From Enchytraeus crypticus (lineage: Eukaryota > Annelida > Clitellata > Enchytraeida > Enchytraeidae): a DNA stretch of 64,000 nt. Below, piece by piece: positions 8,496 to 62,422 of this stretch. Position numbers and translations under genes: made by a program. The stretch lies in contig CAJHZI010000620.1 in NCBI GenBank assembly GCA_905160935.1, positions 1 through 64,000 on the forward strand, read 5' to 3'. The first letter of the stretch is position 1; the number at the start of each line of letters is the position of its first letter. The notes beneath the pieces are model-generated. The model searched no databases. It saw only the letters and a program-made list of their open reading frames with translations, and was not told where the DNA came from.

Positions 8496-8637
8496 TTACA
8501 ATGATCGCAGGATACCTACCATATTCAAATCTCTTATGTAGAACTTGCACATCTTGATCGTAGCCTTGTAGAATTCCCCCAGTTCTCTCACATCACACGA
8601 GCTCTCAACCAAACAGTTCCACGTTAACCTGTACTTT
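8496..8637 (-). CDS. Six-Cys module 6, exon B, probable terminal exon
   Basis: Acceptor ATATTTGCAG. It encodes KYRLTWNCLVESSCDVREL, then FYKATIKMCKFYIRDLNM followed by VGILRSL and TAA at 8496-8498. An alternative donor GTAGGT exists at 8514-8519 but would leave phase 0, unlike every other B exon, and no continuing exon was found at lower coordinates, so a terminal exon is preferred. Confidence 0.72.
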
Positions 8638-8694
8638 CTGCAAATATAATAAAATAAAATAGTCCCAGTAAATATAGAATAAAACCAATTAAAG

Positions 8695-8766
8695 AGAATG
8701 GGAGAAGGTCTATCCGAACCCTAGTTAAACTTAGATTTAAGGGAAGATGATGATGATGATGATGAC
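8695..8766 (+). mobile_element. Second RTE-like family, 3' end with GAT tail
   Basis: GAGAAGGTCTATCCGAACCC, then GATTTAAGGGAAGATGATGATG.. as at the 6145 copy, on a shorter scale; no coding part. Confidence 0.7.
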
Positions 8767-8876
8767 AGAAATAAAATTAAATAGATTAACAGATAGCATA
8801 TACATCCATAGGCGTGTATACAATGAATTTAAACTTGATGTTTAAGAAATAATGATTTTAAAATAATTACAATATA

Positions 8877-9124
8877 TCGTCGGCTAAACTGCAAAACCCC
8901 GTAGGTAGGTTTTTTCATAAAATTATATTATTGCATCAAAATATCGGTTTTCACAGTCTACATCAACCTGCAAAAACTTGTATTCGAGAGTATTATTTAT
9001 CGATCCTATTTTAATCAAGGAAGTTGAAGGCTCAAATACTCGTCAACTTAACTTTTGTTTGTTTTTGCATTTCCTGAAAAATTTGTAAAAACTTACTTGA
9101 GAGGTTTTGCAGTTTGGCCGACGA
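8877..9124. mobile_element. Small MITE with inverted ends
   Basis: About 248 bp whose ends are inverted copies: TCGTCGGCTAAACTGCAAAA at 8877 and its near-complement (TCGTCGGCCAAACTGCAAAA) ending at 9124. No coding capacity. Target duplication is unclear in the AT-rich flanks; family not recognised. Confidence 0.65.
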
Positions 9125-9289
9125 ATTATTGAACATGCGTCACTTGTTCTTAGGGTTATACACATGATTACGTAGGTGCTGCAGACTGTACTTTCTCCAA
9201 GCTCATTAGTAATCTTTGATTTTTTTATCGATGGCAGCCGGCGAGGATTTAATATTTTAAAAAAACTTTCAAAAAGGAGCGTTGCAATT

Positions 9290-9400
9290 CATTCATAGCT
9301 GTCTCACCAGACGGTCGCCCATTCAGTACTAACCGGGCCCGAATTTACTTAATTAATGACACGCGCTTTACAAGGTGCGCCTAATCTGGCCCAAGCGATA
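9290..9400 (-). repeat. 5S rRNA-like fragment (SINE or pseudogene)
   Basis: The minus strand reads CGGGCCCGGTTAGTACTGAA and TGGGCGACCGTCTGG, close to the internal region of animal 5S rRNA (GGGCCTGGTTAGTACTTGGATGGG recalled in part). Flanks are not 5S-like, so it is a pseudogene or part of a 5S-derived SINE. Confidence 0.65.
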
Positions 9401-9663
9401 CTATGTAAGATGAGCAAACATGATATTGAAAGCAGTAAATTATTATTATTAGTTAGTGCTTTATATAAGGTATAATAGCCCATACTTCAAGAATACAGTA
9501 AATATGGGCCTAGTAGTTCAAATTCAAACATAAAGTACATATATCGGATCAAGAGTGAGTTGTTGATTAAGGTTGTTTGTTGATTCGGAAAAGGAAAGAG
9601 TTTAAAGTGCTACACAATTATACTTTTATCTTAAGTAGTACTTGAAGTTGATATCCACTTGAT

Positions 9664-9728
9664 ATCCAGCCGTCACGGATATCACTTTCGAGTGAGGAAA
9701 CTGACGTCAACATTAGCTTAATCAGGTT
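9664..9728 (+). mobile_element. SINE-A 3' fragment
   Basis: TTTCGAGTGAGGAAACTGAC with flanking family sequence; head missing. Confidence 0.7.
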
Positions 9729-9934
9729 TTTTTTAAAAGAGATTAGTCAGAGATTATCACTGATTTGATATATAGGACGATAACTTAAAGATAAATATCG
9801 CTACGGACAGTATAAAATTCTTGATTTTCTTTATTTTGTCATTTACACCGTTTTTTGGACCTTCTTTTTGCTCGCCAGCTTGATTTTGACTAAATAGTGC
9901 TCGGTGTTGTCATTGATGACTATAGTACTCTAAT

Positions 9935-9985
9935 TGTTGTTATTGTTATTATTGTTATTATTATTATTATTATTATTATTATAGT
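9935..9985. repeat. TTA/TTG trinucleotide array
   Basis: TTGTTATTGTTATTATTATT type repeat. Confidence 0.9.
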
Positions 9986-9999
9986 TATTACAACTTTAT

Positions 10000-10225
10000 T
10001 TTGTTATGGTAAATTTATAGAAAATATATGAACAACATTTGGACATAATATATAATCAATGTTCTTAAGGTAACTCAAAATTACTCGAGACATTATAGAC
10101 GAGTATTCTAAGTACTATATCTTTTAACGCTGCTATTTTTTCTTCAGTTTTATTCTTATCACTGTGTCGAGAAATAATGATCATATACATTCCCGAGTTT
10201 TGTCTGGACGAGAGACGAACAAACC
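10000..10225. other. Intron sequence, nothing recognised
   Basis: AT-rich single-copy-looking sequence without gene or repeat signal. Confidence 0.5.
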
Positions 10226-59787: not shown

Positions 59788-59819
59788 CTGTATAAAATTA
59801 AGCAATAAATATATAGGCA

Positions 59820-59873
59820 TATATATATATATATATATATATATATATATATATATATATATGTATATATATA
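59820..59873. repeat. AT dinucleotide array
   Basis: Pure AT about 30 bp upstream of the acceptor of mini-exon 1. Confidence 0.96.
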
Positions 59874-59879
59874 TGAATT

Positions 59880-60865
59880 CTACCTATAAAATGTTTGCAA
59901 TGAATAAGTCCTGTTGCATTATGTTAATATATTGAAAGCTGTGGTTTGGCTATAACCAAAAAGTAAATTTGTAATAAGATTCTTCCTTATATAGGATACG
60001 ATTTTCCAGTACGACATTTTGACATCAATATTAAACTGTTTCGAAGCAGAATCTTCAGAGTGAGAAAGAGAGAAATATGTTTTATTTTCACAAAATTTCA
60101 CAGAGTAATCACATTAATGAACTCGTGAAAAAATTAAATAGGCATCATCAGAATCTAAGTAATAAGTGCAATGCGTCCTGTAAATGCAAAAATAAGTCTT
60201 GTAAGTGCACAAATAAAACAACAACAAAAATGTATATAATAAATTGAATAAAAACTACGCCATCAAAGAGGACGATGGATCTTAGAGGAATAGAGCTAGG
60301 CTTTAGATCATGGGGTCCGGTTTTCTATTTTCGCTTGAGTCACTTTAATTCTTTAAGTTTTTCTAGTTTTTTAGTGTTTTCTTGGAATTAATTCAGGGTT
60401 AAGGGCAGGAGTAAGGGTTAAGGTTAGGGATATAAAAATTTTAACTTTCATTTTAAACGTCCATTCAACAATAACAATTAAACACCTCTCACTATTCATC
60501 TCGATCCTCCTGGCCTAATTCCAGATTCGTTTTAGAGTACATCGTAACCACTGCGTATATTGAGAGTGATCTAAATAGGATTACATGTGGAATAAGAAAC
60601 CTATATTTATATAAATGTATAAGTTTTGATGTTTTAGTTTCGCATTTGCGTTGTTGTTCAAAGAAGTCTAAGTTAATTATAATTTATAGGCTGTTAATAT
60701 ATTTAAGGAAAATTAGATTAGGTTACTGATTATCTAAGACTACATGCGTAACACTGTGTATATCTTTGTTACTAGTGCAACATAAATTTGAAGATGAACA
60801 ATAGCTTACATGTAAATTTTCCATTAAATTAATAAATACCACGACAGTGAAAATATAAACTATGT
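59880..60865. other. Intron sequence; degenerate telomere-like motif at 60396-60432
   Basis: Otherwise unremarkable. 60396-60432 contains GGGTTAAGGGCAGGAGTAAG and GGTTAAGGTTAGGG. Confidence 0.5.
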
Positions 60866-60867
60866 TG

Positions 60868-61072
60868 ATATATCTAATTTTTAATTAAATATATTTAAAC
60901 AGTTAAACAATCCAATTCCGTTTAACCAGTCCAGTGATTGTCCGAGATTTTACTTTCCGATCAGCTCGGTCGAGAATCGAACCCATGAAAGCTCATTTCA
61001 CCTAAGAATCTGTCATTAAAACTTCATGACGTTACCTGACGCCTCTAACCACTGAGCTAATGAGACATTCTC
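60868..61072 (-). mobile_element. SINE-C copy
   Basis: Minus strand has a textbook box A, TAGCTCAGTGGTTAGAG, near 61060 and box B-like GGTTCGATTCTC; plus shows AACTTCATGACGTTACCTGA. Confidence 0.86.
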
Positions 61073-61079
61073 TAGTTAC

Positions 61080-61640
61080 ATTAAATAAGGACTTAGCTTT
61101 TTACATTGTATACTGCATAATATACTTTAAATGAATAGTTAGAAGTTCATTTTAGGACATTATATTGCTGTACAAGACTAAAATTTACAGTGTAGATTAA
61201 AAAAGGCTTTACAGGGTATATTAAAGATAAGACGTTAAAGAATACTTTGAAAGAAGACAAATACTATAAACGAAAGAAGAATTCACAGTGTACTCTATAT
61301 GAATAATTGTACGTTAAAAGAAAAAGTTGCAGTGTACTTTAGATGGCGGGTTTAGAGTAACAACACAAATGAATTGAGCCGTAACAGAAATGATTTACAA
61401 AGAAGAAAACTAACGCTAAACGTGGCTCTAGCTTCATGCTTCGGATTAAATCACCTACAAACTGAACATTATCTTTAGTCACCTATGAACTGAATATAAA
61501 TTTTAGTCACCCACTAATTGAATATTAACTCTGAGATGGTTTGCTATTTCGTAAAATACATGACCTCCCTGGAGGTATTATTATGTATTTAAAAGATTAT
61601 GTATCCAAAGTCACTTAACGTTTAGACAATCACGGAAGTA
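61080..61640. other. Intron sequence, nothing recognised
   Basis: Repeated loose words (TTTACAGTGTA, GTCACCTATGAACTGAATAT) but no defined family. Confidence 0.4.
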
Positions 61641-61649
61641 AACAAAATG

Positions 61650-62005
61650 GATGCATCCATCTCTCTATCTCTCTCTCTATCTTTCTCTATCTCTCTCTCT
61701 CTATATATCTCTAGTTTTCTGCTAAGCGGCAGGTCCAATGTACTTATTCCTAATGCTATGCTGCTTTTCACGCTTCAATAAAAAGGCACCAGATCGATCA
61801 ATGAGTTAATAACTTGTTAAAAGGCCATGCCTTATCCACACGTTAATGTAGCCTATATAATCCAAGAAGAATTAAAATCATCTTAAAAGGCCTTGCCTTG
61901 TCCACACTCTAATGTAGCCTAGAGCGTCCAAGAAAAGTTAATAGCAGCTTAAAAGGCTAGAGGCCTTATCCATAATTTAATGTATCCTATCCATACCTCA
62001 TTAAA
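61650..62005 (-). mobile_element. SINE-B copy with CT array and internal duplication
   Basis: CT/CTAT array 61650-61712, then plus CTGCTAAGCGGCAGGTCCAA. The segment CTTAAAAGGCC..CTTATCCA..TTAATGTAGCCTA recurs three times at 61830-61990. Confidence 0.72.
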
Positions 62006-62170
62006 TCTATCAAGCCTCACGTACGATCACAACAATCGGAATGCAACTTTCATTCAAGATAACATCAGCACTACAGCCACAAATCAAAACCTGAGAATCA
62101 ATAGGCCCAAAACCGTGTAAAATAAACAAGTATAGAAAACCGTCAAAGATACACATCCACTCATACTTAC

Positions 62171-62422
62171 AGGTTCTACTCAGTCGGAAGAGATGAACGT
62201 TAGGAGTATCTCTCTTCCTCATCTTCAAGTCCTTCTCGTCCAAAATCAGGCCGCAACCTCTCTTACTTGCGTCGTCCGTCTGATCATAGATGATTCCAAA
62301 ACAATGCTTCAGACTTATGCAGAGGTTCTTGCACGACCTTAGAGACTGGAACGAAGTGACCATAATTGGATTGGAGACGGTTGTATTGAGGCTCTCCATC
62401 CAAGAAAGGCAATCTTCTCTCA
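62171..62422 (-). CDS. PAN/apple domain exon 1 (phase 1-1)
   Basis: First exon of the gene visible here. Acceptor TTCAG precedes 62422 and donor GTAAGT follows 62171. It encodes about 83 residues: REDC, then W two residues later, SLRSCKNLC, the block KHCFGIIYDQTDDASKRGC, and RLSRT leading to a cysteine codon split T|GC by the intron. Spacings C-x3-C-x5-C-x15-C match the other four PAN exons exactly. Reading on past the donor gives a longer open frame, but the donor is conserved in position in all five copies. This copy has Gly where the others have an aromatic residue after the fifth Cys. Confidence 0.85.

Follow-up and report, generated by a model that had tools for sequence, protein, structure and literature searches.

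A putative modular gene combining tandem PAN domains with six-cysteine modules in Enchytraeus crypticus DNA

A 64,000-nucleotide stretch of Enchytraeus crypticus DNA (contig CAJHZI010000620.1, positions 1 to 64,000; here called the window) appears to carry on its minus strand the 3' part of a single animal gene, spanning about 54,000 bases (62422-8496) and encoding a secreted, disulfide-rich modular protein. We put the probability of this reading at roughly 0.7. In gene order, five PAN domains are followed by six modules of six cysteines each, with mostly non-coding DNA between the exons. The 22 minus-strand exons of the preliminary description of this DNA, with AG acceptors, GT donors, compatible phases and a TAA at the end, were reproduced: five encode PAN domains, five are micro-exons forming the PAN tails (27, 27, 27, 27 and 18 nucleotides [nt]; t1 to t5), and twelve make up the modules. 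Its proposal of one modular gene is retained as the best reading of these exons, the union of PAN and module exons in one transcript being the part that we infer. The exons are listed below from 5' to 3'; A and B denote the two exons of a module, C1 to C6 its cysteines, and E values refer to leave-one-out hidden Markov models (HMMs) unless stated otherwise.

62171..62422 (-), PAN1 exon, 252 nt, phase 1-1: acceptor tcttcag, donor CT/GTAAGT; E 7.9e-16; best AlphaFold2 (AF2) confidence score (predicted local distance difference test, pLDDT) 81
59761..59787 (-), PAN1 tail t1, 27 nt, (C)RETSKDFA, completes PAN Cys6: sole candidate in the intron; junction TGC = Cys
56323..56571 (-), PAN2 exon, 249 nt: splice borders and phase; E 1.9e-14
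53914..53940 (-), PAN2 tail t2, 27 nt: without it, PAN2-PAN3 gives a stop (TAA)
52629..52868 (-), PAN3 exon, 240 nt: Pfam PAN_1, 24.8 bits, above the cutoff of 21.4; E 4.9e-19
50562..50588 (-), PAN3 tail t3, 27 nt: better of two candidates in the intron; junction TGT = Cys
49937..50197 (-), PAN4 exon, 261 nt: splice borders and phase; E 2.1e-13
48117..48143 (-), PAN4 tail t4, 27 nt: micro-exon scan; a direct PAN4-PAN5 join keeps Cys6 too
46797..47045 (-), PAN5 exon, 249 nt: splice borders and phase; E 3.3e-18
44595..44612 (-), PAN5 tail t5, the 18-nt exon of the preliminary description, linking to the modules: sole candidate between PAN5 and A1; top splice score of the five tails; junction TGT = Cys
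41902..42016 (-), module 1 exon A (C1, C2, C3): spacing and phase; acceptor in a 51-bp repeat; in-frame alternatives 42067, 42118
38758..38867 (-), module 1 exon B (C4, C5, C6): spacing and phase; leave-one-out profile
37920..38043 (-), module 2 exon A: spacing and phase; leave-one-out profile
35231..35355 (-), module 2 exon B: spacing and phase; leave-one-out profile
30049..30190 (-), module 3 exon A: spacing and phase; leave-one-out profile; acceptor alternatives 30175, 30163
28339..28451 (-), module 3 exon B: spacing and phase; leave-one-out profile
27066..27189 (-), module 4 exon A: spacing and phase; leave-one-out profile; acceptor alternatives 27183, 27180, 27177
25365..25501 (-), module 4 exon B: spacing and phase; leave-one-out profile
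16482..16617 (-), module 5 exon A: spacing and phase; missed by the leave-one-out HMM
13153..13262 (-), module 5 exon B: pairwise match to B1, E 2.8e-4; missed by the leave-one-out HMM (E 16, rank 75)
11216..11333 (-), module 6 exon A: weak by leave-one-out (E 0.7, even set); acceptor alternative 11327
8496..8637 (-), module 6 exon B, ending in TAA 8498-8496: spacing and phase; possible phase-1 donor 8516 (G/GTATCC), may not be terminal
25552..25630 (-), incomplete second copy of module 4 exon B, outside the mRNA model: 99/118 bp, 84%, including the acceptor; gives way to a TTGA repeat and a stop

The exons sum to 2873 nt, or two orphan bases plus 957 codons including the TAA. The orphan bases, the first two of the PAN1 exon, complete a codon begun in an upstream exon that was not found in the window. 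They had been described before, together with a count of 952 codons that is not upheld here; ambiguous acceptors, which can drop five codons (for example A4 at 27180 plus A6 at 11327, 9 + 6 nt), may account for the discrepancy. As previously stated, no junction codon is a stop, and none occurs elsewhere inside the joined frame. Exon boundaries were picked to preserve the frame, and the exact length sum is thus not independent evidence. The shared phase-1 boundaries proposed earlier are found at all PAN exons, at all tails and at all modules taken as wholes, but the A-B intron within each module is in phase 2; whole modules alone could therefore be exchanged. The phase-1 introns that bound PAN units and modules would permit their multiplication by tandem duplication.

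The composition of the gene model (44% GC, 53% at third codon positions [GC3]) differs from that of the window (35% GC, with microsatellites and transposon-bearing DNA), and the GC3 value was counted as a coding signature. The proportion of synonymous differences (pS) exceeded that of nonsynonymous ones (pN) in 25 of 25 pairs of copies, 19 of them with saturated synonymous divergence (dS); these pairs are not independent and the protein-guided alignment favours pS > pN. The joined protein contains 66 cysteines (5 x 6 + 6 x 6), all of which fit the modular scheme. It also contains seven N-glycosylation motifs, and no strongly hydrophobic 19-residue stretch was found in it. A decayed gene with still recognisable exons would be consistent with the sequence at 25552-25630, which is a dead partial copy of exon B4 lying in the intron just upstream of that exon, as well as with weak acceptors and a minisatellite at A1. 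We consider a pseudogene very unlikely, given that the chosen 957-codon frame is free of stops and that every one of the 66 cysteines is present; the excess of pS points the same way but reflects the history of the sequence rather than its present state.

PAN domains and their tail micro-exons

The PAN exons correspond to five mutually similar stop-to-stop segments near 62.2, 56.4, 52.7, 50.0 and 46.9 kb. All five have lengths that are multiples of 3, phase 1 at entry and exit, and the donor T/GTAAG. Searched singly against Pfam, one of the five (PAN3) scored above the curated cutoff; the rest gave E values of 0.00026-0.037, each with the PAN model that fitted it best. Minor matches of single members to MANEC, PAN_3 and Toxin_5 (E 0.067-0.15) were judged to be due to chance. 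The Pfam search of the joined protein suggested in the preliminary description gave PAN_1 at 46.2 bits (cutoff 21.4; E 4.2e-12) over five stretches, the module part staying below all cutoffs. Leave-one-out HMMs recovered all five exons with E values of 2.1e-13 or better, the best outsider reaching 0.1. A passage in PMC9249922 gives the core of the PAN/apple domain as four to six cysteines; in the model, Cys1 to Cys5 lie in each of the five exons and Cys6 at each of the five exon-tail junctions. When one domain of the five, PAN1, was folded with AF2, the pLDDT values were 81, 81, 61, 60 and 51 (best 81.3). Six of the first ten Protein Data Bank (PDB) matches retrieved with Foldseek were LAPP (leech anti-platelet protein), HGF, factor XI and plasminogen and four were fungal copper oxidase, with E values of 0.02-0.05. 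PAN identity is thus solid in the joined protein, the fold match being weaker.

If successive PAN exons are joined directly, the junction codons read Ser, stop, Leu and Cys in turn. Such joining was rejected, as it creates a TAA at PAN2-PAN3 and loses Cys6 at PAN1-PAN2 and PAN3-PAN4. At these junctions one would expect the sixth PAN cysteine, so that the exon following each PAN exon should begin with G[CT]. A first scan for such micro-exons, stricter and differently weighted, returned only t3, t4 and t5 and left introns 1 and 2 empty; t1 and t2 surfaced after loosening the thresholds and dropping the terms for exon bases at the borders, which makes the thresholds post hoc. The looser scan (9-60 nt, open, in phase) found a single 27-nt candidate in each of introns 1, 2 and 4 and two candidates in intron 3, with lengths of 27 nt for the better and 33 nt for the other; after PAN5 it found a single 18-nt candidate. 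Among controls, three of five plus-strand spans and one of six other minus-strand introns each held one lower-scoring candidate, none of 27 nt.

The scan was extended to the whole window with an acceptor score of at least 0 and a donor score of at least 4, values set after the candidates had been seen. At these thresholds the minus strand contains four 27-nt candidates, one per PAN-PAN intron, and the plus strand none; the 9-60 nt candidates on the minus strand number six, the sixth being at 3813 (42 nt). In 300 intron sets resampled under a first-order Markov model, a candidate appeared in 0-1.7% per intron, and all four together in 0 of 300. The scan and the resampling are our main ground for taking the gene as real. 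In the sequence, each PAN domain is split, with cysteines 1-5 in the main exon and the sixth completed by the micro-exon (27 nt; 18 nt for PAN5). The tails would be needed in the mRNA, as skipping them would cost Cys6 at PAN1-PAN2 and PAN3-PAN4 and introduce the stop at PAN2-PAN3; PAN4-PAN5 alone would keep its sixth cysteine without a tail.

The same junctions can be read in another way. PAN1 to PAN4 all end in T and PAN5 begins with GC, so that any of the four spliced to PAN5 forms a sixth cysteine, and the Ser, stop and Leu at the direct PAN1-PAN2, PAN2-PAN3 and PAN3-PAN4 joins would be expected if PAN1 to PAN4 were mutually exclusive exons giving a two-PAN protein in four isoforms. This arrangement seems highly improbable, since it leaves unexplained why each of these exons should be followed by a dedicated 27-nt tail, which supplies Cys6 and leads in frame to the next PAN.

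The transition from t5 to the modules bears on a further alternative, that of two adjacent genes: a PAN-array gene and, behind it, an independent gene for the six modules, whose first exon would end in t5. An ATG-initiated frame (44748-44595, minus strand) runs with a long Ile/Tyr-rich hydrophobic stretch through the t5 acceptor and ends in phase 1 at the t5 donor; moreover, t5, at 18 nt, is unlike the four 27-nt tails, and a common transcript for both halves is itself deduced. However, the hydrophobic stretch falls on the AT-rich tract belonging to the t5 acceptor, which scored best of the acceptors seen, and the length and Ile/Tyr-richness of the stretch were judged unlike a usual signal peptide. 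Without t5, in addition, PAN5 has no sixth cysteine, and the interval from PAN5 to A1 offers no other micro-exon candidate of 9-60 nt. Two genes therefore appear unlikely, and the single-gene model is kept in what follows.

Six-cysteine modules

Downstream of the PAN-like segments lie two families of short cysteine-rich minus-strand segments, which make up modules with the spacing C-x7-C-x25-27-C-x8-C-x5-C-x15-17-C. Exon A encodes C1-x7-C2-x25-27-C3 and is entered in phase 1 and left in phase 2; exon B encodes C4-x5-C5-x15-17-C6, is entered in phase 2 and ends in phase 1 or with the stop. In all six modules the A-B intron cuts the codon after C3, past its second base, and an acceptor lies seven whole codons ahead of C4. 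A scan for this spacing and phase, a pattern derived from the same exons that it recovers, returned 12 minus-strand rows of type A and 11 of type B. Besides the six exons, the A rows comprised six from a microsatellite near 35 kb; the B rows comprised the six exons, two sites inside PAN exons and three in a minisatellite near 42.1 kb. No rows of either type were found on the plus strand of the window. A tightened pattern gave seven A rows (the six exons and one in a microsatellite) and six B rows on the minus strand and 0 and 0 on the plus strand, compared to means of 0 (A) and 0.025 (B) in 120 sequences simulated under a second-order Markov model that leaves microsatellites unmodelled.

Profiles were less uniform. 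In leave-one-out searches with B exons, B1 to B4 were recovered at E values of 7.1e-4 or better and B6 at 0.15, and B5 was missed (E 16, rank 75). When all A exons were used, E was below 1e-4 for A3 and A4, 0.08 for A2, 0.15 for A1 and 1.3 for A6, and A5 was unlisted; within odd and even sets, A1 to A4 were recovered (E 0.0055 or better), A6 (0.7) and A5 (1.4) not being significant. Modules 1 and 3, and likewise 2 and 4, are 38% identical, as against 12-24% in the other 13 pairs; a two-module unit was thus probably duplicated at least once. The six module copies of the preliminary description are accordingly all found but are not equal, 1 pairing with 3 and 2 with 4. Modules 1-4 would have arisen by duplication of such a unit. 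The third pair (5 and 6) is too diverged for identity to show duplication, though the B exons of modules 1, 3 and 5 each extend five codons beyond C6.

The module had no match above cutoff in Pfam, whether as single modules, as two-module units or in the joined protein. Six PDB matches of the module profile (zinc-finger and sulfhydryl-oxidase chains, E at least 0.016) were taken as chance. AF2 models of B exons alone were helical, with a pLDDT of 60, and gave no fold that could be interpreted. The three two-module units resemble Pfam CPG4 (PF15481, chondroitin proteoglycan 4) with E values of 1.2, 0.017 and 0.66 (10.1, 16.1 and 11.0 bits; cutoff 32.7), and one of the six single modules (M3) matches it. 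CPG4 also appeared in one of nine controls in which all residues but cysteine had been shuffled (E 1.8), and cysteine spacing alone may explain the resemblance. It is only a lead, and a weak one, giving no assignment; on this evidence the module is not a member of that family. Chondroitin attachment would call for Ser-Gly sites, and no SG dipeptide occurs in the joined protein as modelled from PAN1 onwards. In PMC11632948, C. elegans CPG-4 is entered with a C-terminal domain of low complexity and without a known function.

The ends of the model and the points that weigh against it

Both ends of the model are open to revision. The gene starts either beyond the window or at a place within it that escaped us. 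At the other end, B6 could use the donor at 8516, ten codons after C6 and comparable in this to B2 (11) and B4 (15), and TAA 8498-8496 may for that reason not be the true gene end. Directly before module 1, at 41985-42135 on the minus strand, a 51-bp repeat is present three times, each copy with an in-frame acceptor; the choice among them adds 0, 17 or 34 residues. An extra exon before 41985 was dropped, its sole candidate lying in a repeat stretch (with a similar copy elsewhere), and the acceptor at 42016 was taken.

Several observations count against the single-gene model. Under the criteria applied, the interval 62430-63990 yielded no candidate for a start or signal-peptide exon. The acceptor of A1 sits in a minisatellite, and the entire link from PAN domains to modules depends on the single 18-nt exon t5. 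On a generic scale, the acceptors of PAN2-4 and A2-A6 score negative and the donors of B1, B3 and B4 near or below zero. Motif patterns and thresholds were fixed after the exons had been seen. Profiles detect modules 5 and 6 weakly, so that cysteine spacing and splice phase are the main support for these two. The AF2 models of PAN1 varied in confidence, with a pLDDT of 81 in two and of 51-61 in the other three, and no PDB match of its fold reached an E value of 0.001 or below in Foldseek. Homologue searches retained nothing from 3181 candidates at 0.001 for the joined protein without tails (914 residues), from 45 at E 1 for the module alignment, or from 563 at E 10 for the PAN array with tails; these negatives carry little weight, because even PAN relatives went unfound.

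Possible function, related proteins and genomic surroundings

The structure of the gene is far firmer than its function. By analogy, and at odds somewhat short of even, the likeliest role of the product is that of a secreted matrix or recognition protein in which PAN domains serve as the docking part. PAN domains mediate binding to proteins or carbohydrates, according to a passage in PMC3707919. Through its PAN array the product would attach to a partner, which may be a protein or a glycan, and the six-cysteine array would form a stable multivalent spacer or a second binding surface; the missing upstream exon or exons would supply the signal peptide.

Known proteins offer partial parallels. 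Plasma kallikrein and factor XI share with the predicted protein a tandem PAN/apple array and secretion, and also matched it in PDB sequences (kallikrein heavy chain, E 0.007) and folds; however, plasma kallikrein has four apples and a trypsin-like protease, as the text of PMC3707919 has it, as compared to five PAN domains here, and neither a trypsin-like protease nor a kringle was matched by Pfam in the 956-residue joined protein, which begins at PAN1. C. elegans LET-653 is a secreted matrix protein, and its PAN domains bind a luminal fibrillar matrix in about the region of greatest chondroitin proteoglycan abundance, as described in part of PMC4970718. It combines two PAN domains with a ZP domain, in contrast to the five PAN domains and six unassigned six-cysteine modules here; Pfam found no ZP domain in the joined protein. 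LAPP, a salivary PAN protein with affinity for collagens (from a passage in PMC7191736), was the second-ranked PDB fold match to PAN1 but is an 89-residue chain without a module array.

It is conceivable, though less likely than not, that the gene represents a new extracellular architecture together with a new domain family: tandem PAN domains completed by micro-exons and fused to undescribed six-cysteine modules that spread as a two-module unit. The micro-exon might then act as a splicing check: when skipped, two of the four PAN-PAN junctions would lose Cys6, one would meet a stop and one would keep the cysteine. No papers on PAN/apple domains in octopus or other cephalopods were found among the open-licence literature, and that the architecture is undescribed is thus not proven. 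If correct, the model shows a large multidomain animal gene that views of open reading frames (ORFs), and possibly automatic annotation, would miss; 12 of the 22 exons are shorter than 125 nt, five of them 18-27 nt. Should the six-cysteine module be a real family, animal extracellular proteins would have in it a building block so far unlisted. The PAN tail would clearly illustrate how protein chemistry, here the sixth cysteine, can point to exons that gene finders might pass over.

Scans of the window for tRNA genes and Rfam families gave no match. In a Pfam scan of ten longer ORFs, six matched reverse transcriptase or transposase families and four nothing. A pair of long transposase-like ORFs with 30% mutual identity lies in introns on the opposite strand (14258-15382 and 36623-37714, both plus); the second is above the Pfam cutoffs (HTH_Tnp_Tc3_2, DDE_3) and the first below. 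Fragments of retroelement reverse transcriptase (Pfam RVT_1) are found at 475-900 (minus), 1916-2497 (plus) and 45099-45734 (plus), and a transposase fragment (Pfam DDE_Tnp_1_7) at 58145-58525 (plus).

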